A stretch of DNA of 32,422 bases, from positions 1 to 32,422 of IMG/VR virus record IMGVR_UViG_3300044710_000207. One strand, given 5' to 3'. Positions 12,960-31,803 of the stretch are shown piece by piece. The position numbers and the translations under genes were made by a program. Below the pieces are notes generated by a model, which was not told where the DNA came from, made no database searches, and saw only the letters and a list, made by a program, of their open reading frames with translations. The DNA comes from a virus. The stretch's first letter is position 1. Each line of letters begins with the position of its first letter.

Positions 12960-13181
12960 TTACTCCCTCACCTTGGAAACGTAGTTTCCGCCGAGGCTCT
13001 CGTACACGTTCAGGGTGTCTCCGGTGTTGAACATCGCCGCGACTTTGAGCAGCTCGGGGTCTGCACTCGCCGACTTCTGGAGGAGGACCGTGTCGACGGC
13101 ACTGAGACGAGGAGAACCGAACCGCTCCTCGAGAGCAGCCCGGCCCACCACATCAGCAGCCAGTTTACGGAGGTCGTCCAT
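12960..13181 (-). CDS. Small protein, 73 aa, between sheath and tube
   Basis: From ATG 13181 (TAATG overlap with the sheath stop) the product starts MDDLRKLAADVVGRAALEER, helical, then LLQKSASADPELLKVAAMF, two copies of the K-x-A motif seen across this operon, and a beta-like end (LNVYESLGGNYVSKV). The frame extends upstream opposite nothing but the sheath, where it is clearly a shadow. Possibly a tail-assembly factor, or a LysM-like tail adaptor given the NVYESLGGNY ending; that is speculative. Confidence 0.7.
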   Translation of the reverse strand: MDDLRKLAADVVGRAALEERFGSPRLSAVDTVLLQKSASADPELLKVAAMFNTGDTLNVYESLGGNYVSKVRE

Positions 13182-16654: not shown

Positions 16655-17647
16655 TCACACTTTGACTGTGCTCGTCCCAGTGCCATTCGCATCGTGTCTC
16701 TCACACGATTCTTCCACACTGGGCGCTGCTATGGGAATAGACCGACCCCCCATCCCCGGTGGTCGCACGGCCGGACAGTTCGGTCTGGAGGCTCGAACTA
16801 CAACACGCTGAGCGGGGTTCAGTGGGTGCGGCGCGGTGAGAAGAACAGGGGCAGTTGCCCCCGGTACAGGCGTATTGCCGTACACGTCACTCGCAAGAGG
16901 TGCGAAAGCTGGAGGTCTGTACCCCTGCACGCCCACGGGCAGGTTTGCGCCCGCAGCTTCGATGGGTCCACAGTGTCCACCAACGCGCAAGTTCTGCTCG
17001 TTGATGGCCCGAAGCTTCAATCGAATTGACAGCGTGATCTCCTCGAGGATGTTCTTGCCGAGAGGACTTGCCTGCGACGTCCGATAGAATTGAAAGGGGC
17101 AAGTGACCGGCGTGACGTACCACTCGTCGCCGGAATCCGCGACGATGATGGAACCTGCAGGAGAAGGAGAACCGATGGCAGGCTGTCGGCCAATCTCAAA
17201 GAACCCCGCCTGCATGAGCTGCTCTCTGTGCATCCAGAGTTGTTCGGCGCACACCCAAGCGATGCGTTCGCACTCGAGTGACACGCGCGAGCTGCAATTG
17301 ATGACCATCGTTCCAGGCACAAGAACGGACTTCTTCTTCGTGCCAGTCCGCATGTCGAAGTCGAGCATGTCGTCGAGGCCGAGTGAATAGAACTGCACCG
17401 GGCCACGCGTAAAACTGACCGCAGGTCGCTGCCCGATATTCTCGGCGTGAATCGGGTTCTCGTTGGAGATGTAGATCTCCGTCGAGTTCGAGTCTTCCTC
17501 CCAGTGGTAGGCACCAATCGGCGCAGCGGAGAAGAGACCCTGGAAGAAGCCTACAAATAGAGAGCGAGCGTGCTCGAGGGGCGAGTACTTGAAGCTGTCC
17601 TCAGGGAAGGCGCCCGCCGGGTTTGTTGTCGGAACCTTCGAGGGCAT
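16655..17647 (-). CDS. Putative neck / tail-terminator protein
   Basis: The 330-residue product starts MPSKVPTTNPAGAFPEDSFK, contains HARSLFVGFFQGLFSAAPIG and a beta-rich middle ending LVPGTMVINCSSRVSLECER, a helix AWVCAEQLWMHREQLMQAGF, and DEWYVTPVTCPFQFYR strands, with a Pro-rich C-terminal tail of about 80 residues. Its place directly upstream of the sheath and after the neck gene matches tail-terminator or tail-completion proteins (T4 gp15 position); the middle helix between two strand sets is compatible with that fold. The ATG at 17647 overlaps the upstream gene by 47 bp and has GGAGG. No certain family match. Confidence 0.6.
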   Translation of the reverse strand: MPSKVPTTNPAGAFPEDSFKYSPLEHARSLFVGFFQGLFSAAPIGAYHWEEDSNSTEIYISNENPIHAENIGQRPAVSFTRGPVQFYSLGLDDMLDFDMRTGTKKKSVLVPGTMVINCSSRVSLECERIAWVCAEQLWMHREQLMQAGFFEIGRQPAIGSPSPAGSIIVADSGDEWYVTPVTCPFQFYRTSQASPLGKNILEEITLSIRLKLRAINEQNLRVGGHCGPIEAAGANLPVGVQGYRPPAFAPLASDVYGNTPVPGATAPVLLTAPHPLNPAQRVVVRASRPNCPAVRPPGMGGRSIPIAAPSVEESCERHDANGTGTSTVKV

Positions 17648-17951
17648 TTCGCATCGCCTCCACCTGACGGGCCTGAGCCATATTGTACGCCAGCCCCAGA
17701 CCCCCACCAAGCATGGGTAGGGCAGCAAGCGTGAGTGCAGGAGGGATGTCACTCCCCGTGACGTGGCGGTAGGCCTTGTTCGCGAGCTGCCCTGCACCGA
17801 AGCCCGCGAGCGTTCCAACCCCCATACCGACAGGAGCTGCCAGAAGAGTACCTGCCGCACGCAGATTCTTCTTCGCCTCGCCCTCGGCCATCTTGCAGAG
17901 TGCCTCGGCTTCTTTGCGCGGCAGGTAAGCGAACAGAGTGGGCGTGCTCAT
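17601..17951 (-). CDS. Small glycine-zipper membrane-like protein, 116 aa
   Basis: Starts MSTPTLFAYLPRKEAEALCK. Residues about 33-57 (LLAAPVGMGVGTLAGFGAG) and about 72-90 (LTLAALPMLGGGLGLAYN) are two Gly/Ala-rich hydrophobic stretches like glycine-zipper helices. The rest is polar. ATG 17951 overlaps the neck-gene stop (ATGA), and its 3' end overlaps the next gene by 47 bp. In phages such proteins may be internal virion proteins inserted into host membrane; here that is inferred. Confidence 0.65.
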   Translation of the reverse strand: MSTPTLFAYLPRKEAEALCKMAEGEAKKNLRAAGTLLAAPVGMGVGTLAGFGAGQLANKAYRHVTGSDIPPALTLAALPMLGGGLGLAYNMAQARQVEAMRNALEGSDNKPGGRLP

Positions 17952-18856: not shown

Positions 18857-19939
18857 TTACGCCGCCCGCAGGCGCCCGAGCATCCCGGTCGGCCGCGTGA
18901 AGTCGCCGACGTTGGGGGGCATCATGGGAGAACCTGTGGGCAATCGACTTCCGAGGACGGAGGGGTCGGCCATTCCACCCGGTGAGGGTCGGCGGGCACC
19001 GGGGGCGCCTCCCCCCATGAGAGTGCCTCCATACCCCTTGGCAGCTTGTCCCAGGGACTGGCCGCCCATCACACGTCCACCGATGCCGCCCGCAGCGTGC
19101 CCGAGCGCGGCGCCGCCGAGGGCCCCACTGAGACGGTGCCCTTCGCCCCCAGCAAGCGCTCCACCGGCCGCACCGAGCGCGGCGCCGGCCATCGCAGGGT
19201 TCTTCGCAGCAAAGCCGAGTGCCTTCTGAGCAAGTGGCGCCGCAGATGCCAGCATCCCCCCAAGACCCGCGGCCTGTTTGGCCATCACCGCACCGGCGTG
19301 CCCGCCGTACATACGCAGCAGCTCGACGTGCGCCGCCTTGTCGAAATCCTGCCGCGCGAGCTCGCGCCCAAGGTTGTCGGCGAAGGCGATCTTCTCCTGT
19401 GGAGTCCCGCTGAGCACGGCCGCGGCCGATTTGGCGACACCGCCCCCGAGACCCTGGCTGTCGTCCTGCACACCCTCCGCAGGCACCGGCCCGGGAGCCC
19501 CGGCTCCTTGCGCAGGAGTGTCTGCGGTCGCGCCGAGCTCCGCCTTGAACTTCTCCAGCTCGAGCAGGCGCTTCTTCATGCGGATCTGGTCCTTCATGTC
19601 GTAGAAGTTGTCGTCGAGCTTGTTCTGCTGACGGCGCTCCTGGCGCTTCTGTATGTCGGTCATCTCGGCCTGCAGCTCCTCCTGCTCGAGGGCGATGGCT
19701 TGGTCGAGAAACGGCGTGCCCTTGAACTGGTCGAGCCAGGTCTTGGGAGTGCCGTCGGACTTGCATTCGTCCATGTACGCCGCCTTCTCGAGGTGCGGCC
19801 AGAGGCGCGCGACGGGCGTGCCATCGGCCAGCTTGCGCAGCTCCTCGGCCGGCAGCTTCTCGAGCAGGGACATGACCTCGACCGTGCTCTCCTTGCGGAG
19901 CTGCTCCTCGTAGGCGACCTTCAGAAATTCGTTCAGCAT
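18857..19939 (-). CDS. Structural protein: helical N-terminus, glycine-zipper C-terminus
   Basis: The 360-residue product starts MLNEFLKVAYEEQLRKESTV at ATG 19939; a GTG three bases earlier (19942) would overlap the previous stop and is equally possible. Residues 1-135 are strongly helical and charged (DIQKRQERRQQNKLDDNFYD), residues 190-300 are Gly/Ala-rich with regular GxxxG spacing (AGAALGAAGGALAGGEGHRL), and the tail is Pro/Gly-rich. Repeated K-x-A motifs (FLKVAY, LEKAAY, FDKAAH, MAKQAAG) mark it as part of the same protein set as the scaffold and protease. Probably an internal or tail-associated virion protein; no named family. Confidence 0.7.
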   Translation of the reverse strand: MLNEFLKVAYEEQLRKESTVEVMSLLEKLPAEELRKLADGTPVARLWPHLEKAAYMDECKSDGTPKTWLDQFKGTPFLDQAIALEQEELQAEMTDIQKRQERRQQNKLDDNFYDMKDQIRMKKRLLELEKFKAELGATADTPAQGAGAPGPVPAEGVQDDSQGLGGGVAKSAAAVLSGTPQEKIAFADNLGRELARQDFDKAAHVELLRMYGGHAGAVMAKQAAGLGGMLASAAPLAQKALGFAAKNPAMAGAALGAAGGALAGGEGHRLSGALGGAALGHAAGGIGGRVMGGQSLGQAAKGYGGTLMGGGAPGARRPSPGGMADPSVLGSRLPTGSPMMPPNVGDFTRPTGMLGRLRAA

Positions 19940-21612
19940 CACGCGGCTCCACGTTGTTGGATGATCGTCTTGATGTCGCTGCCGATGCCCTTGAGGTGCT
20001 CGGCTTTGTTCTTCGCCGAAGCGACGAGACTGGGGCCCATCTGCGCTCCCGAGATCCCGCCGCCCAGCGCACCCATCCCTATCATCGCAGCTGGGTGCTT
20101 CTCAGCAAACTCCCCGATGGTGAGCCGCGCGCGGCGCTGGGCGAGACCGAGGGTGTCCTTGTAGTTTCGGTTGGGGTTCGCCTCGAGCGCAGAGATCTCC
20201 CCACGGAGGGGTTCGTTGCTGGTGAAGGCCTCGCCGGCGCCCAGGCCCGCGCCGAGCGCGGCGCCCACAGCAGCATGCGGCAGGCGTGCGACGGCGCCGG
20301 GCGGGAGAAGGTCCCGCAACGATGCCGTCTTACCGACGAAAGGGCGGGAGGCCGATGCCAAGACCTCCTTGTTCGGAGTCTTCGCGTCCCCGCTCGGCTC
20401 CTTCTGGTTCATGGAGGTCGTCGAGCTCGCACCCTCGAAGGTCGGCTCGTTCTTCGACGCCGGAGTGGATACAGTGTCGTCTCCTTCCGGAGCCATTCCC
20501 GCCGGGGGGACACCGGGGTTCGGCGCGGCGCCGGCGGGACCAGCGGTGGGCGCCGGCGCACTGCTCGGACCGGCGGCCTGGCTCGCTGCGGCGTTGGCGG
20601 CGTCGGTCGCCGGCGTGGGGGTGAGCGAGGGGGGCTCCTGCGAAGCGGCCTCGAGGAGAGTACCCCGGAGCTGCTGGAACGCCATGCGCATCGCCGCGGC
20701 AGCCTGCTGCTGCTGGAGCACCTGATCCTGCGCCGTCATGGCCTTCTGCGTCGCATCGGCGACCTGCGCTTGGTACTGCACCGACTGCTGCTCGCTCATC
20801 TCCTGCTGCTGCTGGAGGTCCTGCGTCTGCTGAACGGCAGCCTGCGACTCCTGCCGGAGCGCCTCGAGCTGCTGGCGCAGGTACGCCGATTCGCTCTGCT
20901 CGGCCGCCTGATCGCCCGCCATCTGCATGGCCAGGAACTGCTGGGTTGCTGGGTCGAGGAGGGGCTCGATGCCCTGGGGCTGTGGTGTGGCCGGGGCAGG
21001 CGCCCCTGCCTCTGCCGGCGAGGGGGCCTGCGCGGGAGGCGCCTGGATCATCCCCGCATCGAGCAGAGCGAGCTTGAACGCCGACGCGGCCTTCTCGTAC
21101 ATCTTTCGATCGTGGCCGGCGCCGAGGTGCTTGCCGACCTGGCCGCCGAGGTGTTCCCCCAACGCCGCGCCACCGAGGGTCGCAACGGGGTTGCCCTTGC
21201 CGTAGCGGTGCATCGCCGCGGCGCCCGCGGCGCCCCCGAGGAGCTTGCCGACGAGGCCTCCCCGGCCCTCCCCCGTGTGGTGTTTCTCTTTCTCGAACTC
21301 GGCGCTGAGCGAGGCATGCGCACGCTCCTTGCCGGTCTCCGAGGGAGACTTGTCCCCTGCCGCCATCTTCATCCCTGGCGAGGACTGCTGCCCCAGCGCA
21401 GTCGGGGGGAGTGCGGGAGGAGGCTGGGCGCGCATGTTCTGTCCGCGCGCGGTCGGAGGCATTGCTGCCGGAGAAGTCATGGGCATCGCCCCCGCGGCGC
21501 CGCCAGCGAGGGGCATGGCGTTGGCCTCCTTGTCCTTGCCGCGGATGCGGATGAAAAAGTCCGCCGCCTCCGCACGAGGGATGCCACGAAGCAGGTGCTG
21601 TTCGAAGTTCAT
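19939..21612 (-). CDS. Large Gln/Ala-rich coiled-coil virion protein
   Basis: The 557-residue product starts MNFEQHLLRGIPRAEAADFF (ATG 21612, AGGAG). It has a Pro/Met/Ala-rich section, a Gly/Ala-zipper (about residues 115-165, GKLLGGAAGAAAMHRYGKG), a YEKAASAFKLALLDAGM motif, and a long Gln-rich coiled coil (about 225-325, LRQQLEALRQESQAAVQQTQ). A disordered Pro/Ala linker follows, then VGKTASLRDLLPPGA and a second Gly/Ala helix. It resembles internal virion or tail-lumen proteins in design but is too short for the tape measure of a typical myovirus tail. Family unknown. Confidence 0.7.
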   Translation of the reverse strand: MNFEQHLLRGIPRAEAADFFIRIRGKDKEANAMPLAGGAAGAMPMTSPAAMPPTARGQNMRAQPPPALPPTALGQQSSPGMKMAAGDKSPSETGKERAHASLSAEFEKEKHHTGEGRGGLVGKLLGGAAGAAAMHRYGKGNPVATLGGAALGEHLGGQVGKHLGAGHDRKMYEKAASAFKLALLDAGMIQAPPAQAPSPAEAGAPAPATPQPQGIEPLLDPATQQFLAMQMAGDQAAEQSESAYLRQQLEALRQESQAAVQQTQDLQQQQEMSEQQSVQYQAQVADATQKAMTAQDQVLQQQQAAAAMRMAFQQLRGTLLEAASQEPPSLTPTPATDAANAAASQAAGPSSAPAPTAGPAGAAPNPGVPPAGMAPEGDDTVSTPASKNEPTFEGASSTTSMNQKEPSGDAKTPNKEVLASASRPFVGKTASLRDLLPPGAVARLPHAAVGAALGAGLGAGEAFTSNEPLRGEISALEANPNRNYKDTLGLAQRRARLTIGEFAEKHPAAMIGMGALGGGISGAQMGPSLVASAKNKAEHLKGIGSDIKTIIQQRGAA

Positions 21613-24034: not shown

Positions 24035-25159
24035 TTAGAACTGCGTGACGTTCGGGAACTTGAGACCGGCGTCGACTTTGTTATTCGGCGTGCCGAGCGA
24101 GTCCTCGGACACCGGCACGAAGTTCGTGAGCAGGCTGTCGGCGTTCGTGGTCGGGTTCGCGTCCGCCGAGTACAGCTCGAGCTTGCGCACCGAGGCGATG
24201 TTGATGACCGCCATCGCGATGTCCTCCCAGGCCTGGAAGGTGATGATGTTCGCGATCTTGTCGATGTAGAACTTCGTGTTGTTCAGGACGTAGAACTTCC
24301 CGAAGAACTCCGGCTTCGTGAAGACGTACACGTTGCCGGGACGCAGGATGTCCGTCTTGACGGTACGGATGTACGCACGCCCGAAGAGGGTGTTGTACTT
24401 GTACCCGTCGACCGCCGTCTCCGACTGGAGACGGTCGCCGAAGTCCTCGAGCGTCCACTGGAGGATGTCGTCCCAGTCGACCTCCGTCATCAGCAGGCGT
24501 TCGCTGCGCAGGCGGTTGCCGTCGAGCAGCTTGAAGAGGTTGATGACGTCGGGCCGCTGGACGGGGCGGACCGTCGCATCGTTGGTGCTGGCCGCACGCG
24601 CGAGCTCGCCCTTGCGGATCGAGAACTCGACGACGCCGGGTCCTTGGATCTGCGAGGTGTTGAGCGGGGTCGCGACGCCGCCATTCGCCTGCAGCTGCAG
24701 GGCCTGAACCGAGGCCTCGATGTTCACCGTGAACTCGCGGTCCTCGACCTCCTGGATGTCCTTCACCGAGTTCTCCTCGATGATCTTGGTGATGGGCATC
24801 TCGTAGGCGAGAAGCTCCTGCTCCGTCTTCTGGAAGATCTCCGAGCTGACGGTGTAGAAGCCGACCTCTGCCTTCGAGCCGCGGATGAACCGCGCCGTCG
24901 GGCTGCCTCGGAAGGTCATGGTGAGCGCGCGGGACTGCGGCTCGACGTCCACGATCTTCACGAGTGTGTCGTGGTTGACCGACCGCTGGCAGTCACTGCG
25001 CGTGACTTGCTCCGGCGGGATCACCTTTCGGGCGTAGGAGACCTCGCGCAGTCGGTCGCGGATGTACGAGCCACCGTACTCCGCCATCTTCTCTTTGCCC
25101 TCGGACGAACCGAGCTTCTGCGTGAAAAGCTCGTTGAGTACCCTTGCCGGAACGCTCAT
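24035..25159 (-). CDS. Major capsid protein (HK97-fold type, putative)
   Basis: The 374-residue protein starts MSVPARVLNELFTQKLGSSE at ATG 25159 (AGGAG). It contains a long helix (residues about 110-145, IFQKTEQELLAYEMPITKII), a beta-rich mid-part, a basic DDILQWTLEDFGDRLQSE helix section, NVYVFTKPEFFGKFYV strands and a late IITFQAWEDIAMAVINIASV, the W/E-D-x-x-M-A-V type closing strand common in large-phage HK97-like capsid proteins. It lies directly after protease, scaffold and decoration genes, the standard capsid-gene order. The subunits build the icosahedral head. Length is normal. No KTAS motif is present. Confidence 0.8.
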   Translation of the reverse strand: MSVPARVLNELFTQKLGSSEGKEKMAEYGGSYIRDRLREVSYARKVIPPEQVTRSDCQRSVNHDTLVKIVDVEPQSRALTMTFRGSPTARFIRGSKAEVGFYTVSSEIFQKTEQELLAYEMPITKIIEENSVKDIQEVEDREFTVNIEASVQALQLQANGGVATPLNTSQIQGPGVVEFSIRKGELARAASTNDATVRPVQRPDVINLFKLLDGNRLRSERLLMTEVDWDDILQWTLEDFGDRLQSETAVDGYKYNTLFGRAYIRTVKTDILRPGNVYVFTKPEFFGKFYVLNNTKFYIDKIANIITFQAWEDIAMAVINIASVRKLELYSADANPTTNADSLLTNFVPVSEDSLGTPNNKVDAGLKFPNVTQF

Positions 25160-25780: not shown

Positions 25781-26152
25781 TCAGCCCACGCCCCCGACGA
25801 TGAACCGCTCGAGATCCGACGATGTGGCGGGAGACGAACCCGACTCGGCGTCGTTCGTGAGTGATGCGAGCTTCTGCCCCATGTCGGGGCCTACGAGGTC
25901 GACGGCCTGTTCGACGGCGTCGAGCTTGCCCGCCTCGGCCGCCTTCTCCAGACGGGTGGCCAGGTCGTCGACGCTCGTGTCGAGCTCGAGGCCCTTGCGG
26001 TGCATCTCGCTCGCGAGCTTCTCGACCCGGTCACGTCGGTCTTTCGAAGCGAGCTTCTCTTCGAGCTCGCCGATGTACGCGCCCTGCGCTCGGAGCGCAG
26101 CGGAGGCATCGGTCAGAACCTCCGCAATCTGAGCGTGGCTGATCTTATCCAT
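25781..26152 (-). CDS. Coiled-coil protein with K-x-A-S repeats, 123 aa
   Basis: From ATG 26152 (AAGGAG) it starts MDKISHAQIAEVLTDASAAL and is helical: ELEEKLASKDRRDRVEKLAS, then LEKAAEAGKLDAVEQAVDLV and GQKLASLTND, with a final LERFIVGGVG. Three to four copies of K-L-A-S/K-A-A occur with a spacing that suggests an amphipathic helix pattern. Between the 470-aa protein and the decoration gene, it may be an accessory scaffold or internal core protein. Confidence 0.7.
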   Translation of the reverse strand: MDKISHAQIAEVLTDASAALRAQGAYIGELEEKLASKDRRDRVEKLASEMHRKGLELDTSVDDLATRLEKAAEAGKLDAVEQAVDLVGPDMGQKLASLTNDAESGSSPATSSDLERFIVGGVG

Positions 26153-26162
26153 GTGCTCTCCT

Positions 26163-27575
26163 TCACACTCTACCAGGCGCTGCCGCACGGGTGGAAGTAC
26201 CCGGAGCCTGCTTCTCGTCGATGGATGCTGCGAGCTTGGTGAGAAGAACGCGCGCGGCGGCGGTCTTCACACTGGCCGCGGCGGGAGTGACGATGACCTT
26301 CTCCTCGGGAGCGGAGGCGATCTTCGGTCCGGCCTTGCCTGTGTTCTCGAAGGCGACCTGCAAGACGTTGTCGTGTTCGGCACTGAGCGCAGGCTCCTGG
26401 AAGTACTGACGCAGGTCGTTCTTCCGGTTCGCGTAGGCCGTGCCCTTGGTGTAGTCGCGCGCGGCCTCGGACGATGCAACGAGTCCAGTCGGTCCCTGCG
26501 GTGCACCGCCGGCGGGAGCGCCTCCCGACTCGCCCGCTGCGGACGTGTCCGGGGGAACCGCGGCGCCCGCGGAGATCTGCGCCGGGTTGATGGCGTCCTC
26601 TGCCTGCTTGACCCGCGTGAGCATGTGGTCGACGAGCGATACGGGCGCGGCGCCCGCCTCCTTGCCCTTGTTCTCGGGCTCACTCTTGTGCGCGGCCTCA
26701 GCGGTCTCGAGGCCCTTCTTGGCCTCCTCGAGTCCCTGGGTCTCCTTCTTCTCGTGCTCGTCGGACGCGATCTTGGCGCGGATGAGCGAGACGACGTTCG
26801 CGTGCTTCTTGCCGTAGTTGGTCTCGATCATCTTGCCAGCGACGGGGTGCGCCTGGTTGTTCTCCATCTGCGTGCCGCCGTGCTCGGACTTCATGGCCTT
26901 CTGCTCACCAGGGTGCATCGGCACGGTGTGCACACCCTGACCCTTGTGATCGGGCAGAGGCTTGGATGCCGTCGCCTGCGACACGCCAGAAGGGCTCGTC
27001 TGCAGGTGCTCGGTCAAGTTGTGGGGGCCGGCGAGGCTCGCGCCCTCCTTCAACAGGACCTCGGCGCAGAAGTCGAGCGCACTGGCGAGCTTCTCGACAT
27101 CGAAGCCACCGAGCTTCACGCCCGACGACGAGGCCGTCTTCTTTTTGCAAGTCCCATCGTGCTTGTCCATGCCGCACGAAGCGCACTTCTCCTCGGCGGT
27201 CTTCTCCTGTTGAATGCGGGCCTCCTCCGAGACGCGCACGCGGTCACCCGAGGCGACCATCGCCTGCTTCACCAGGTCTTGCAGCATCGGACGAGCAGCC
27301 ATCGATCCAGCCATGTTCTCTTCTCCTGCGGACGCCCGCTTCGGCAACATCTCAGCGCCCCGAGGGGCCATGGACTTCTGTTCGGAGGCGCCCGCGTCCA
27401 TCTGTGGAGGAGCGCCCGTGTTCACCCGGGAGTAGTTCTGCCGCGGCGAGACCCCCGCCGGCCCCCGCTTCCCGGGAGCGAAGGTCGGGTCGATGCTGGG
27501 GGTCGGAACCGGGGAGGCTGCGGTCGCACCTGTGGAAGACGCCAGCGTGTCCGCGGCGCTCTTCAGATGGGACAT
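26163..27575 (-). CDS. Large low-complexity, scaffold-like protein
   Basis: The 470-residue product starts MSHLKSAADTLASSTGATAA (ATG 27575, GGGAGG). Residues 1-95 are Pro/Ala/Ser-rich; a Cys/His patch CASCGMDKHDGTCKKK (about 128-143) could bind zinc; then KLGGFDVEKLASALDFCAEV, a charged helical section rich in Lys/Glu/Ala/His (about 225-310), a Gly/Pro/Ala linker and a helical C-terminus with GPKIASAPEEKVIV and VKTAAARVLLTKLAASIDE. Several K-x-A-S motifs match those of protease and scaffold. An internal head or scaffold-core role is likely; no named family. Confidence 0.7.
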   Translation of the reverse strand: MSHLKSAADTLASSTGATAASPVPTPSIDPTFAPGKRGPAGVSPRQNYSRVNTGAPPQMDAGASEQKSMAPRGAEMLPKRASAGEENMAGSMAARPMLQDLVKQAMVASGDRVRVSEEARIQQEKTAEEKCASCGMDKHDGTCKKKTASSSGVKLGGFDVEKLASALDFCAEVLLKEGASLAGPHNLTEHLQTSPSGVSQATASKPLPDHKGQGVHTVPMHPGEQKAMKSEHGGTQMENNQAHPVAGKMIETNYGKKHANVVSLIRAKIASDEHEKKETQGLEEAKKGLETAEAAHKSEPENKGKEAGAAPVSLVDHMLTRVKQAEDAINPAQISAGAAVPPDTSAAGESGGAPAGGAPQGPTGLVASSEAARDYTKGTAYANRKNDLRQYFQEPALSAEHDNVLQVAFENTGKAGPKIASAPEEKVIVTPAAASVKTAAARVLLTKLAASIDEKQAPGTSTRAAAPGRV

Positions 27576-27611
27576 GACCGAAACCTCCCACGATTCTTCA
27601 CCGTTCCTTGG

Positions 27612-28361
27612 TTACTTCCACTCGACGGGGTAGCCCGCCGCTTCGAGCAGCTCGAGTGCTCGCAGACCGACAGCTGCGTCGACGTTGGGCGCCGAGGCGA
27701 CCTTGCTCTTGCTGTCGGGAGCGAGGCCGAGGGTGACGACGGCAGCGACCTTGCGGCCGGCGAGGTCCGCATCGAAGCCGCCGTCGGCCGCGAGCTTCTT
27801 CGCCTGCTCGATGGCCATCTGATCGAGGGCCGAAGCCGCGGCCTCCTTCTTCTCCTCTTTCTTCTCTTCCTTCTTCTCCTCGGGCTTGCCCTCTTCCTTG
27901 CCCTTCATGTGGGCCTTGAAGGCCTCGGGGATCTCGGCCACCTTCGGCGTGCCGGCGGCGGCTGCCGCAGCAGCTCCCGGAGTGGCCGCGTCGGCCGCGA
28001 TCTTGCGCAGCTCCTGGACGTAGGCGTGGGCCATGGTGCGCCCGAGGAAGTCTGCCTCCGCGACCTTCTCGGCAGCGGCCTTCTTCTCCTCGTGCTCCTT
28101 CTCGGCCTTCTCGCGCTTCTCCTTCTCCTCGTCCTTCTTCTCTTCGTGCTTGGGAGGAGGGAACTCGGCCGACTTCTGGACCCAGTTGTCGTAGAGCGCC
28201 TGGACCTGCTCGTCGGGCATCGACTTGAGGTCGATCTTCTGCTCGCTCGCGAGCTTGAAGAAGAGCTCCACAGAGGCCTGCTTCTCGAGGTCCTCGGCGG
28301 GGGCCGACGCGGTCTTGTTGGTGCCGTAGTGCTCGGCGAGGAATGCGTCCATGGTGGTCAT
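27612..28361 (-). CDS. Putative scaffolding protein (Glu/Lys-rich)
   Basis: The 249-residue product starts MTTMDAFLAEHYGTNKTASA. Residues about 70-100 and 155-175 are runs of Lys and Glu (HEEKKDEEKEKREKAEKEH) typical of scaffold coiled coils. K-x-A-S motifs recur at residues 16-19 (KTAS), 27-30 (KQAS), 36-39 (KLAS), and KVAS near the end. Scaffold proteins fill the procapsid, guide capsid assembly and are removed or cleaved by the maturation protease, whose gene lies immediately upstream (start of this gene near the protease stop, three bases between). An alternative ATG lies at 28352. The C-terminus (GLRALELLEAAGYPVEW) may be a capsid-binding helix. Confidence 0.7.
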   Translation of the reverse strand: MTTMDAFLAEHYGTNKTASAPAEDLEKQASVELFFKLASEQKIDLKSMPDEQVQALYDNWVQKSAEFPPPKHEEKKDEEKEKREKAEKEHEEKKAAAEKVAEADFLGRTMAHAYVQELRKIAADAATPGAAAAAAAGTPKVAEIPEAFKAHMKGKEEGKPEEKKEEKKEEKKEAAASALDQMAIEQAKKLAADGGFDADLAGRKVAAVVTLGLAPDSKSKVASAPNVDAAVGLRALELLEAAGYPVEWK

Positions 28362-28364
28362 GAT

Positions 28365-30125
28365 TCAGTGTCCTCCAGCAATCTTGCTGCGCATGGCCTG
28401 CGTGTTCCTCGAGGGGAATCCCCTCTCCACGACGGCGTGTTGTGTCTCTTCTCCCACTTCATCCCAGAAGGCGAGCTTCAAGTAGCCCGCCGACAGAGGG
28501 GTGAAGAGGCTGTCCACCTCTGCGGCTGCGAGCTTGTGCAAACGCTCATCGGACGGCAGCGCCGTCGAAGCGATGAGTGACTGAGCGTGAGCAACAAGTT
28601 CCATGATGCCGGTTCGGTACGCGTTGTACGCAGACCCTATCTTACGCAAGAGTGGAGAATAAAGGGAAGAAGCGGACGAGCGCTTTTCTTTGAGGGGCTC
28701 GGAGGCAACCAGTACCCTCTTCTCGACAGCCGGTCCTAGTGCTGACCGAGACGACAACAAAGACATCAGGAGTCGCGCCAGAACGGGAGAGAAGAACTCT
28801 TCTCCCATGGGTACGGGCAGAGCCTCATCGCTCTTTGGAAAGACGGTGCCTTCACGTTCCAGCTTGTCGGCGAGAGGACGCTGTCCCATCTGAATGAGGA
28901 TGATGCGCTGAAATTCCCGAGGCCTCAGCACCATCCCGAGCCCTGATGGCGTGGAGAGGGCGCTCTCCAGAGAAGAAGCGCCTAGCGCATCGAGCACTTC
29001 CTTGGGCAGGTCCTTCTCATTCTTCGTGAGCACAGGCACCGCCTTGCCTACGAACTGGCTCGGCATGACGTCCTTCACGATCTCGGCGTCCTTGTCCTTC
29101 GCCTGCTTGCCTAGGAAGGCCATCTTGAGTGCGTCGGTCGGTGCACTGGCTGTCTTGCCAACAACACCCTCCGGAGCGAACTCCGGCAGAAGAAGCTCGT
29201 CTCCATCGGAATAGCCGAGCTTCTCCGCGAGCTCGGCGCCGCTCAAAAACCAGTAGCTCTGTCCTGCTCCTGCAATCTTCATCATCGTCTTGGCTGTCTT
29301 GTCAGCGCCGATGAAGACGAAGCTGATGTCGAAGAAGCTCGGGTAGTCGTTGTAGACGAAGATCTTCCTGCCGTCGGGCAGGATGCGATTCATTGCGCGC
29401 TTGGCGTGGTCGCAGTAGTCGTTGCGCGTGATGGACACGCCACGGATGCCCTTGCCGTTCTTCTGGATGAGGGCCTTGTGGTAGCGCAGCACGGCGTCAC
29501 CAGGTGCCTTGTCTCGTCCAGGAGAGAACATGGACTGCGCTTTTCGATACGTGTCCCAGTCCAAGCAGATGCTGCACGTGTCGAAGGGCACCTTGCAGCC
29601 CATCGATACATCCGGGTACTCACCTGCCTGGAGCTTGTCCCAGACGCCAGTGCCTCCAAACTTCTGGCAGCGCTCGGAGTCGACGCGCGCTACGAGTTCG
29701 ACGCGCTTCATTCGCGGGTTCCACGCGGCGAGCTCCACCTCACCAAAGGCGCGAGAGGCGTCCTTGTTCCGATGGTGCGCGTACGGGTGAGCGGAGTAGA
29801 ACGTCGGGAACCCGTACGGCCAAGTCTTCGCTCGGATCTTGTCGATGAGCGGATTGCCGGTCCACTCGTCGGGACGGTGAATGAGCGCGGTCTCCGGGAA
29901 GTAGTCGCCGTTGATGTTCGAGCCCCAGTACTCGCCCGCGCCCATGGCGTTGAGCAGCACGTACTGCGCATCCTTCTGCGGCTTGAGCGTATCGATGTAC
30001 CGGACCACTTCCGGTAGCAAGTAAGGCGCGGCCGTCTTCTCGAAGACGGGGGCAGAAGGACCGAACAGCGGGATGGCGTTGTGCCCGTCTTCGTCCTCGC
30101 CCTGGAAGAAGGCAACCTTGAGCAT
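28365..30125 (-). CDS. Head maturation protease with Cys-cluster insertion
   Basis: The 586-residue protein has NINGDYFPETALIHRPDEW, a strand-helix opening, then FPTFYSAHPYAHHRNKDASR (His113 or His117/118), RAFGEVELAAWNPRMKRVEL and GEYPDVSMGCKVPFDTCSIC. The His, then a G-E strand, then S174 in V-S-M-G-C is the order of the herpesvirus-assemblin-type prohead proteases (Ser/His, with S-x-G on the nucleophile strand). Cys177, 184, 187 and 238 with His240 (YCDHAKRA) could bind zinc inside the domain. The 586 residues exceed the usual 200-300 of simple proteases; the last 250 residues are helical, K-x-A-motif-bearing and probably scaffold-like. It cuts scaffold and itself during head maturation by analogy. 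Very similar layout I recall from other environmental phages, unproven here. Confidence 0.8.
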   Translation of the reverse strand: MLKVAFFQGEDEDGHNAIPLFGPSAPVFEKTAAPYLLPEVVRYIDTLKPQKDAQYVLLNAMGAGEYWGSNINGDYFPETALIHRPDEWTGNPLIDKIRAKTWPYGFPTFYSAHPYAHHRNKDASRAFGEVELAAWNPRMKRVELVARVDSERCQKFGGTGVWDKLQAGEYPDVSMGCKVPFDTCSICLDWDTYRKAQSMFSPGRDKAPGDAVLRYHKALIQKNGKGIRGVSITRNDYCDHAKRAMNRILPDGRKIFVYNDYPSFFDISFVFIGADKTAKTMMKIAGAGQSYWFLSGAELAEKLGYSDGDELLLPEFAPEGVVGKTASAPTDALKMAFLGKQAKDKDAEIVKDVMPSQFVGKAVPVLTKNEKDLPKEVLDALGASSLESALSTPSGLGMVLRPREFQRIILIQMGQRPLADKLEREGTVFPKSDEALPVPMGEEFFSPVLARLLMSLLSSRSALGPAVEKRVLVASEPLKEKRSSASSLYSPLLRKIGSAYNAYRTGIMELVAHAQSLIASTALPSDERLHKLAAAEVDSLFTPLSAGYLKLAFWDEVGEETQHAVVERGFPSRNTQAMRSKIAGGH

Positions 30126-30134
30126 GAACGCGCG

Positions 30135-30617
30135 TTACTTCTTCTTGCCGCCAAGCGCGGCGCGCGTGACCATGTCCCCCATCGGAGAGCGCATCTTGTC
30201 GCGAAAGTTCAACGTCTCGACGACCTTGCCACCCGCATGCACGGGGTCTTCCATCATCTGACGTACGTAGCTACCGGCCACCGTGGGGTCCTTCGAGAAC
30301 TGCGGGTTGAATGTGCGCAGCGTCGAGAACATCCGGTTTACCAGCCGAGGGTCCTCCTCGTGCTTGGCTGCAACATCCGGGTTGACCTCGAGCATCGCAC
30401 GGAAGTCGCGGCTCTTGGTGGCGGCGTCGTAGATCGCCCCGGCAGCAGCAACTCCGCCCCCAACGGCAAGCGCGCCGGCGGCGCCCATGGCACCACGGCC
30501 GAGCGCGGCGCCCATGCGCCCCGGGTTGCTGAGGCCGGAGCCTGCCATGAGCCCTTGCCCGAACGACGCGGCCGTCTTCGTCTTCAGGTACTCCGTGACG
30601 GGATTCTCACTGCCCAC
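30135..30617 (-). CDS. Internal virion protein candidate with glycine-zipper
   Basis: The best start is GTG 30617 (GAGG site, 11-bp overlap with upstream gene), giving MGSENPVTEYLKTKTAASFG. Residues about 32-65 are Gly/Ala-rich (GALAVGGGVAAAGAIYDAA), a glycine-zipper-type helix. The C-terminal half FRAMLEVNPDVAAKHEEDPR, FSTLRTFNPQFSKDPTVAGS and YVRQMMEDPVHAGG follows a pattern (R-x-M-L-x-x-N-P-D, F-x-x-L-R-x-F-N-P, K-D-P-x-V-A-G-x-x-x-R-x-M) that I believe is widespread in phage internal virion proteins. Ends LGGKKK. Longer readings upstream look like shadow and are rejected. Function may be ejection-associated. Confidence 0.7.
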   Translation of the reverse strand: MGSENPVTEYLKTKTAASFGQGLMAGSGLSNPGRMGAALGRGAMGAAGALAVGGGVAAAGAIYDAATKSRDFRAMLEVNPDVAAKHEEDPRLVNRMFSTLRTFNPQFSKDPTVAGSYVRQMMEDPVHAGGKVVETLNFRDKMRSPMGDMVTRAALGGKKK

Positions 30618-31803
30618 TTTGGACCTCGTACTTGTGCCGGAGGTGCGCCGTCGTCCCCGGGATGTTGCGCGCGACGAGGTCGACCGCGCCTCGCGCGCCA
30701 CGCGCCGGAAGGCTCGGGCTGTTCTGCATGTGGGTGTAAGCCTCCATGCCACCGATGCCGATGGCAGCTTCCGGCAAACGTGAAACCACCTTCTCGGCCA
30801 CCGCACCCGCTGTAGGGCCGACTGTCTTCTCAACGAAAGGGCGGATGGCCTTGCCTGCCCCCGTGCTCACTCGAGAGGCTGTGTTGTACATGTCGGCGAG
30901 AGACGCCTGCTTGAGGTAGTGATCGAGATGCGCGGCGTGCTGGCGGAGCTCGCGCTGCGCTCCGCGCGTCTCGGCGAGCTTGGAGAGCACCGTGCAGAAC
31001 TCCTCGAACTCGACGATGAGCGGGTGCTCGGTGTTCACCACCCTGGCGCTGGCGGTCTTGTCGACCGACGCGACCGCGGCTTCGAGCGTGTGAAAGACCC
31101 CGTCACGCAGCAGCCGCGGCGTGATCAAGGAGAAGGCCACCTTGATGTGATCCGCGCTCGGAGCCACCGTCGACCAGGCCTGCATCACATCACCCAGGCT
31201 GACGTCAGAGAGCGCCGCCTGCTTGACCTGGTGGTACACCCGGTCCCCGAGGTCGGCGTACATGACCTCTAGGCCATCGAGCTGCGTCTGCAGATGGTCC
31301 TCGGCGCCGGCGAGCTTGTCCTTCAGCTCGATGACTTCCGAGTGCGGATTGGCGTAAGGCAGCTCCGTCTTCAGGTCCGCACCGAAGATGGCACCGAGCT
31401 CACGCTCCGCGACGTCCGACTCGATGCTGGCCGTCTTCGGCGGTGCGTCGTAGTCTCCGGTGCCGCGATCGAAGACCGAGCCCCCACCCCCATCGTTCAG
31501 GTCCTGCAGGATGGCCGCCGGGTCGGCGGGTCCGCCCGGGAAGTCGACCACATGGTGCGTGGCGCCTTCCTTCTTGAAAGCCTCGAGGTAAGCCGCCGTG
31601 TTGGCAAACTCCGCTACCCTCTTCACCTGCTCGGGAGAGAGCTGCGCCTGCTTGACCGTGGTGACGACAGCGTCGGTCAGGGTCTTGTGCTCCCCCGCAG
31701 TCCAGTCGGCAGCCGCCTTCTTACCCAAAACCTCGAGGTACTCGCCCGAGTGGGAGTGTGCGTTCATTTGCTGCATCAGGCCGTGCCGGGGAAGGTCACT
31801 CAT
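30607..31803 (-). CDS. Large structural/internal protein, first late gene
   Basis: The 398-residue product starts MSDLPRHGLMQQMNAHSHSG from ATG 31803; a GTG three bases upstream is an alternative. It is mostly helical and acidic, with K-x-A motifs in series (VKQAQLS, PKTASIESD, VKQAALSD, IKVAFSL, DKTASARVV, LKQASLADM). Residues about 310-365 carry Ala/Gly-rich stretches (TVGPTAGAVAEKVVSRL, AAIGIGGMEAYTHM) and the end is basic. As first gene after the divergent control region it may be an internal or core protein made with the head module. No portal motifs seen. Family unknown. Confidence 0.7.
   Translation of the reverse strand: MSDLPRHGLMQQMNAHSHSGEYLEVLGKKAAADWTAGEHKTLTDAVVTTVKQAQLSPEQVKRVAEFANTAAYLEAFKKEGATHHVVDFPGGPADPAAILQDLNDGGGGSVFDRGTGDYDAPPKTASIESDVAERELGAIFGADLKTELPYANPHSEVIELKDKLAGAEDHLQTQLDGLEVMYADLGDRVYHQVKQAALSDVSLGDVMQAWSTVAPSADHIKVAFSLITPRLLRDGVFHTLEAAVASVDKTASARVVNTEHPLIVEFEEFCTVLSKLAETRGAQRELRQHAAHLDHYLKQASLADMYNTASRVSTGAGKAIRPFVEKTVGPTAGAVAEKVVSRLPEAAIGIGGMEAYTHMQNSPSLPARGARGAVDLVARNIPGTTAHLRHKYEVQSGQ

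Follow-up and report, generated by a model that had tools for sequence, protein, structure and literature searches.

Proteins of the head cassette in the window (the whole 32,422-nucleotide stretch analysed) share a short Lys-x-Ala motif, which is strongly supported, on sequence comparisons, as a meaningful part of head assembly, since its enrichment holds in held-out loci, is limited to head genes genome-wide and goes together with conservation of the motif lysines. The motif is probably (at a probability of about 0.68) a maturation cleavage site recognised by the phage's own prohead protease, putatively of the form L-x-K-x-A↓S, and this cutting code would differ from the Glu codes of T4, phiKZ and SPN3US. 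The case for cleavage is that the motif flanks the protease catalytic domain at an invariant position, the set of carriers is of the T4 gp21 type and beta-branched residues stand beside the Ala-Ser. The earlier note had proposed a shared cleavage site or docking peptide; a role in head assembly is borne out and the bracketing of the protease tips the choice towards cleavage, with docking kept as the main rival since helices predicted with confidence contain some of the conserved copies.

Together, the six head-cassette proteins contain 33 copies of K-x-A-[S/A], far above the 5.1 ± 2.2 expected from residue shuffles (z 12.5; 0 of 1000 shuffles reach this count). In the same proteins and by the same shuffles, K.A is found 57 times versus 22.9 expected, and R.A (10 versus 12.4), A.K (20 versus 23.0) and E.A[SA] (4 versus 5.1) are not enriched; R.A[SA] likewise displays no enrichment. 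The major capsid protein (MCP), sheath and seven further structural proteins together have one K.A[SA] versus 1.1 expected. With codon shuffling, AARNNNGCN is in excess in frame (57 versus 22.9 expected) and not in the remaining five frames. Because the excess is confined to the coding frame, the enrichment is at the protein level, and a DNA-level repeat is ruled out as the source of the motif. All motif positions that had been picked out by eye in the protease, the scaffold, the 470-aa protein and the proteins at 25781-26152 and 30607-31803 were recovered, including four K-[T/I/V]-ASAP copies (KTASAP at protease residues 324-329 and scaffold residues 16-21, KVASAP at scaffold residues 220-225 and KIASAP at residues 418-423 of the 470-aa protein), KTAS in 30607-31803 (two copies) and KLAS in 25781-26152. 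The core motif is broader than K-x-A-S/A as first described; the consensus of 2019 sites is [L/M/F/I]-[E/V/T]-K-[T/V/I/L]-A-[S/A]-[A/E]. Position +1 favours the beta-branched residues T/V/I and disfavours G/P, S is found at +3, the aligned flanks carry no signal beyond about -4 to +4, and no longer helical periodicity is seen around the sites.

The motif excess holds across a large family of tailed phages, in relatives gathered by protease homology that span 38-67% GC and protease identities down to 26%. K-x-A is usually their most over-represented residue pair and ranks first in 57 of 69 held-out loci. All carriers examined have a Cys at Ser+3; more distant protease relatives display neither this Cys nor a cassette-wide K-x-A excess. 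Covariation of the +1 residue between the protease and the other proteins across lineages gave no clear pattern. In four whole genomes the head cassette was enriched 2.2-2.5-fold and the rest was at background level; the few exceptions included a distal gene family common to all four. A member of this family, Arash gp242, is present in the virion proteome with 21 unique peptides and 550 spectra (PMC10585845). The window's phage also has the motif in a few proteins encoded in the tail-gene region. The earlier note had extended it to 12960-13181 and 18857-21612, and it is enriched in the former (about 73 aa; K.A[SA] 3 versus 0.1) and in the 361-aa protein at 18857..19939 (about 360 aa; [LIVFMY].K.A 6 versus 0.8); in the protein at 19939..21612 (557 aa, given elsewhere as 577 aa), K.A[SA] is not significant (3 versus 1.2, p 0.12).

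The protease resembles T4 gp21, which is its best fold match in the PDB (5jbl, Foldseek probability 0.80, with a weak E-value of 0.2). Foldseek also returned 60 BFVD matches at E<=0.001, many of them annotated as prohead proteases. Among 44 family members, 18 hit PHROG 18299 ('head maturation protease'). A PDB sequence search gave no match, a search of genome contigs gave no relatives of the protease, and no convincing Pfam family was found for its 44 homologues or for any cassette protein. His118 and Ser174 are conserved in the expected order in alignments of 44-52 sequences and in 49/49 held-out ones, and are predicted to be the catalytic pair of a T4 gp21-type, HK97-like prohead serine protease; a CCCH zinc-finger-like set (C184/C187/C238/H240) is also present. 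Ahead of the catalytic domain, Lys30 and Ala32 are conserved in 98% and 94% of 52 sequences and in 49/49 and 48/49 held-out sequences, on par with the catalytic His and Ser. In the AlphaFold model this site falls within a segment (27-32) with pLDDT<50, and the linker 304-357 between the catalytic and C-terminal domains is of low confidence as well. The gene adjoins that of the scaffold, upstream of the MCP gene, in the window and in the Arash, D69 and T4 maps.

Table 1. Motif-carrying proteins and individual motif copies in the window.
Feature	Position	Strand	Basis or remark
Prohead (capsid maturation) protease, 586 aa, 14 K-x-A	28365..30125	-	conservation, Foldseek, PHROG
Protease N-site KTAA, residues 30-33, directly ahead of catalytic domain	30027..30038	-	alignments
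Protease C-site KIA, residues 283-285, end of catalytic domain	29271..29279	-	K-x-A in 43/52 sequences
Protease KTAS (start of KTASAP), residues 324-327, in linker 304-357	29145..29156	-	alignments, AlphaFold model
Helical core/head protein, 398 aa, 10 K-x-A	30607..31803	-	shuffles, conservation, structure model
Cassette protein, about 154 aa, one KTAA near N-terminus, between 398-aa protein and protease	30135..30599	-	start inferred from sequence
Scaffold-like protein, 249 aa, 13 K-x-A (10 of them K-x-A-S/A)	27612..28361	-	assigned by position and composition
Scaffold KTAS (start of KTASAP), residues 16-19	28305..28316	-	
Scaffold KVAS (start of KVASAP), residues 220-223	27693..27704	-	K-x-A in 22/29 homologues
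Core protein, 470 aa, mostly low-complexity, 15 K-x-A	26163..27575	-	
470-aa protein KIAS (start of KIASAP), residues 418-421	26313..26324	-	
Core protein, 123 aa, three KLAS copies	25781..26152	-	
Major capsid protein	24035..25159	-	PHROG 2522 major head protein, E 3.5e-9
MCP K24-M-A26, conserved K-x-A in N-terminal segment, candidate propeptide site	25082..25090	-	
Ala/Gln-rich virion protein, 557 aa, few K-x-A	19939..21612	-	K.A[SA] counts alone not significant
360-aa protein, N-terminal LKVAY, LRKLA, LEKAAY; Gly-rich C-terminal half	18857..19939	-	
73-aa protein, three K-x-A-S/A	12960..13181	-	

In the scaffold family and in the family of the 398-aa protein (a 399-aa ORF), the motif lysines are more conserved than the other lysines of the same proteins (p about 0.001 each). 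Among 44 homologues of the latter, the K-x-A copies at 29-31, 195-197 and 250-252 (399-aa ORF numbering) are kept in 40, 32 and 33, respectively. The structure model of the 398-aa protein, for which no fold match was found, puts the most strongly conserved copy (K28/A30 by the numbering of the model) and several more within helices of high confidence rather than in loops. In the scaffolds of Arash and D69, the copies flank repeated, roughly 30-residue units that look helical. Ala and Lys are abundant in the cassette proteins. The MCP, described earlier as free of the motif, indeed lacks K.A[SA] and nevertheless has a conserved K-x-A near its N-terminus, without Leu at -2 or a following Ser; the MCP of phage G has no K-x-A.

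If the motif is cut, scaffold, core proteins, immature protease and capsid protein would co-assemble into a prohead, in which the protease would remove its own N-terminal ~32 residues at K30-x-A32 and free its catalytic domain of the C-terminal region by cuts at sites around residues 283-345. Cuts at many copies in the scaffold and core proteins would produce small peptides that leave the head, and the capsid protein would probably be trimmed by about 26 residues. The bond cut is probably that between Ala and Ser, which would put Lys at P3 and Ala at P1, because a 'strict-x-strict, then Ser' layout matches A-x-E↓S of SPN3US. Against cleavage, mass spectrometry of Arash finds scaffold and protease peptides in virions, with coverage figures that look unreliable; the incomplete MCP site, missing altogether in phage G, and the weak E-value of the PDB fold match also count against it.

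Alternatively, K-x-A could be a docking peptide that attaches scaffold, core and internal proteins to each other or to the inner capsid face, a multi-copy analogue of the T4 capsid-targeting sequence. The many copies per protein, several conserved copies situated within predicted helices or at their ends, the units flanked in the Arash and D69 scaffolds and the short N-terminal peptides by which T4 internal proteins are targeted (PMC9958956) would all fit. However, the motif lies on both sides of the protease catalytic domain, in flexible segments, and also in the capsid protein itself, its +1 residues Thr/Val/Ile are poor helix formers, and helical periodicity does not extend around it. We regard docking alone as unlikely. 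The T4 sequence is a single N-terminal tag of 10-20 residues that suffices for packaging; the copies in the window are multiple and mostly internal. The motif could also recruit clients to the core and be cut there later, as T4 targeting peptides are. Propeptides of T4 and SPN3US have been described or proposed to play both roles, but the multi-copy pattern of the scaffold exceeds a single N-terminal tag, and this dual use seems improbable.

A by-product of Ala/Lys-rich helical proteins, compositional or structural and inherited by homology, would suit the make-up of the cassette proteins, yet it is highly improbable: shuffles that keep composition yield 5 copies, not 33, the look-alikes R.A[SA] and A.K stay at expectation, the AARNNNGCN excess is restricted to one frame, the motif is over-represented in the same way across 38-67% GC and among held-out loci, and in the 399-aa and scaffold families the motif lysines are better conserved than the others.

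Should cleavage be correct, sequence could reveal the capsid-maturation substrates of a large phage clade, most of it uncultured, in which the head proteins have no other family match. It would also mean that T4-type proteases have switched specificity from Glu to Lys-x-Ala together with all their substrates, and the motif would be a testable packaging or cleavage tag. By its motif copies, the distal gene of the Arash gp242 family already stands out as likely to encode a head protein. A wider proposal, which we consider rather doubtful, is that throughout a widespread clade, which takes in Bacillus phage G, Salmonella phage Arash and several hundred protease-carrying metagenomic contigs, a Lys-x-Ala↓Ser code replaces the Glu code, the same peptide recruits proteins to the prohead core and the motif marks head cargo.

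Among known systems, enrichment found substrates only in part: in the SPN3US positive control gp54 ranked first and gp245 12th, and most single-site substrates ranked low. Since verified A-x-E substrates thus mostly rank low, enrichment is no general mark of substrates and is not taken here as proof of cleavage. The Glu-type motifs (L/I)-x-E, (S/A/G)-x-E and A-x-E are not enriched in the window, Arash and D69 cassettes (z -1.0 to 1.5), which alone does not exclude their use. The searched literature on prohead protease motifs, with subscription papers outside its coverage, describes no Lys-x-Ala motif. Proteases homologous to that of the window, with the motif on either side of the catalytic domain, are found in phage G (gp19) and Arash (gp222), and the literature searched gives no account of the motif in either. 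The head maturation proteases of Bxz1-type mycobacteriophages (gp86), Erwinia Yoloswag and Pseudomonas Peetri belong to the same family and keep the zinc-finger cysteines but, unlike the window, lack Cys at Ser+3 and a cassette-wide K-x-A excess. Herpesvirus assemblin, a protease of distantly related fold, has maturation and release sites at an Ala-Ser junction, which are not known to carry Lys in P3 as a rule.

SPN3US gp245 cuts at A-x-E↓S, processes itself and acts on propeptides with repeated sites (PMC10052503). Like the window motif, the sites of gp245 and phiKZ gp175 are short and 'strict-x-strict' and are followed by Ser; unlike it, they are cut after Glu, and the window motif is multi-copy through the whole core. 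T4 gp21 cleaves after Glu in (L/I)-x-E, whereas in the window Lys-x-Ala is enriched and L/I-x-E is not, and the window protease differs in its CCCH zinc-finger-like insert and large C-terminal helical domain. Nevertheless, the T4 gene order 67-68-21-22-23 is similar to that of the window, and the gp21 substrates (gp22, gp67, gp68, IPs, gp23 and gp24) resemble its set of motif carriers. Furthermore, gp21 is blocked by its own N-terminus and activated by self-cleavage there (PMC9958956), and the window motif stands ahead of the catalytic domain, where gp21 removes this blocking segment.

A myovirus head cassette occupies the minus strand of the window (an IMG/VR virus record, GC 0.64), with neck, tail and sheath genes after the major capsid protein (MCP); gene starts were picked by hand from open frames. 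A protease identical to its 586-aa member is also encoded on a 170,766-base contig, IMGVR_UViG_3300044981_000338 (G001). All K-x-A-[S/A] motifs that the earlier note had read by eye are present in window proteins where it had placed them. In six cassette proteins (398, 154, 586, 249, 470 and 123 aa), K-x-A-[S/A] occurs 33 times (5.1 ± 2.2 when their residues are shuffled) and K-x-A 57 times (22.9 when shuffled), with no enrichment of R-x-A, R-x-A-[S/A], A-x-K, E-x-A-[S/A] or Glu-type protease motifs. Since the K-x-A excess is confined to the coding frame and uses ordinary codons, the motif is a protein feature. The sheath, as had been claimed, and other structural proteins are at the shuffled background. 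A few tail-region proteins carry copies too; in two, K-x-A copies at the N-terminus go together with membrane-like stretches rich in Gly and Ala, a pattern that might be expected of ejected proteins. An open frame of 809 codons runs opposite the scaffold and 470-aa genes and probably arises as a side effect of GC-rich codon usage.

Features of the window and of related genomes (cassette genes in order)
Feature	Genome	Coordinates	Strand	Motif copies, observed vs expected
398-aa protein	window		minus	
154-aa protein	window		minus	
586-aa protease	window	28365-30125	minus	
249-aa scaffold-like protein	window		minus	
470-aa and 123-aa proteins	window		minus	
182-aa protein	window		minus	
MCP	window		minus	
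809-codon open frame	window	26151-28580	plus	
Tail-region protein	window	17601-17951		
Tail-region protein	window	18857-19939		
Distal family member	G001	78918-80420		15 vs 4.3
Distal family member, gp242	Arash	174466-175335		
Scaffold-like gp223	Arash	148194-148976		
Scaffold-like protein	D69	156012-156821		

K-x-A enrichment is a clade-wide feature. A protease search matched 66 loci in viral contigs (GC 0.38-0.67), in most of which K-x-A is the most over-represented, or nearly so, of about 1600 residue-pair spacings ranked per locus. A further scan with a profile found relatives encoded in 557 stretches; among 69 loci taken from it as a held-out set, all previously unused, K-x-A came top in 57 and within the top two in 64. 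Against the genome background (G001, G003, Salmonella phage Arash and Vibrio phage D69, whole or nearly whole), cassettes contain 2.2-2.5 times the expected K-x-A and the remaining genes 0.88-1.03 times. Phage G gp19 and its neighbours also carry the motif (K-x-A the top pair, 46 versus 21.3), with copies, as in the window, both before and after the catalytic domain. The cassettes of mycobacteriophages ET08 and Phrappuccino, Gordonia phage Pupper, Erwinia Yoloswag, Pseudomonas Peetri and Moorella MTATph1, which encode related proteases, show no overall excess; a mild one is seen within the large protease fusions of ET08 (14 versus 7.2), Phrappuccino (11 versus 5.8) and Pupper (15 versus 8.3). 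Cys at catalytic Ser +3, present in all motif carriers examined and in none of six non-carrier relatives, is a candidate specificity residue, the comparison being confounded by descent.

Alignment of 2019 distinct sites from enriched proteins, selected by K-x-A so that only flanking positions are informative, gave acidic residues at -4/-3, Leu/Met/Phe/Ile at -2 and Glu/Val/Thr at -1, then Lys, Thr/Val/Ile/Leu at +1 (avoiding Gly, Pro and Asp), Ala, Ser over Ala at +3 and Ala/Glu at +4, with no signal outside about -4 to +4. Within a protein, motif Lys are better conserved than the remaining Lys in the 399-aa (window 398-aa) family (p 0.0016), the scaffold (0.0012), the 361-aa (0.014, 8 sequences) and the 577-aa proteins (0.026, only 5 sequences), and not in the 470-aa and 135-aa proteins. 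In the scaffold-like proteins of Arash and D69 a unit of roughly 30 residues, LEKxAAVxxLxxxGxxFxxAxxLVKEAS, recurs, each unit having a copy of the motif at either end; the units resemble UBA domains a little. The earlier note had the motif absent from the MCP: K-x-A is in fact conserved near its N-terminus (37 of 42; held-out 41/41; LVKEAG in Arash), although the following Ser is usually missing. This stretch is conserved in general, has no Leu at -2 and lacks its K-x-A in phage G; it is a candidate cleavage site only.

Far from the cassette, one gene family, linked pairwise by blastp, is also K-x-A-enriched in all four genomes and is predicted to be head-internal. Its Arash member is well detected in the published virion proteome (PMC10585845). 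Table 2 there gives 100% coverage from two unique peptides, which looks implausible, so for proteins with low counts a place in the list carries little weight. Arash virions, like those of phiKZ-type phages, contain RNA polymerase beta and beta-prime subunits (gp206, with the most spectra, and gp216), encoded near the head cassette.

The protease has no Pfam or PDB sequence match. Among solved structures Foldseek ranked T4 gp21 first (probability 0.80, weak E-value), and its hits to predicted viral structures include many annotated as prohead proteases; 18 of 44 family members hit PHROG 18299, annotated as head maturation protease. The protease represents a new branch within a known type. Four residues making up a CCCH zinc-finger-like set (C184, C187, C238, H240) are nearly invariant and can be recognised in the proteases of Bxz1-type mycobacteriophages and Erwinia phage as well. 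The AlphaFold model (mean pLDDT 78.7; below 50 at residues 27-32 and 304-357) comprises a catalytic domain (about 36-287), a linker (304-357) and a helical domain. K30 is kept in 98% and A32 in 94% of 52 proteases (A32 exceptions include Ser), and in 49/49 and 48/49 held-out ones. Copies conserved in more than half (30, 283, 324, 334, 340) all flank the catalytic domain directly on one side or the other, or fall within the linker, as would be expected of self-processing sites. In T4, gp21 becomes active by cleaving off its own N-terminus, which otherwise obstructs the active site (PMC9958956).

Prohead proteases cleave short motifs common to scaffold, core, capsid protein and the protease itself. 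With the motif, its enrichment, conservation and position, and the protease family directly established, we infer cutting at the motif, the bond cut and the order of events. Because K-x-A-S shares its layout (strict-x-strict, then Ser) with the SPN3US gp245 site (A-x-E↓S, P4 Val preferred; PMC10052503), the prohead protease would cut between Ala and Ser; alternatively it may cut after Lys, as in T4-like L-x-K, which would not show in trypsin data. The motif might instead be a docking peptide: in the 398-aa protein several of the conserved copies sit within confident predicted helices, and the SPN3US control, where genuine substrates need not be motif-enriched, counts against cleavage. For these two reasons docking is retained as an unlikely explanation, and a dual role in docking and cleavage as a still slimmer one. 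As to cleavage, no description of a Lys-x-Ala code was found in the open literature searched, where the T4-type motifs described are all Glu-ended; if truly a cleavage code, Lys-x-Ala would be a new variant.
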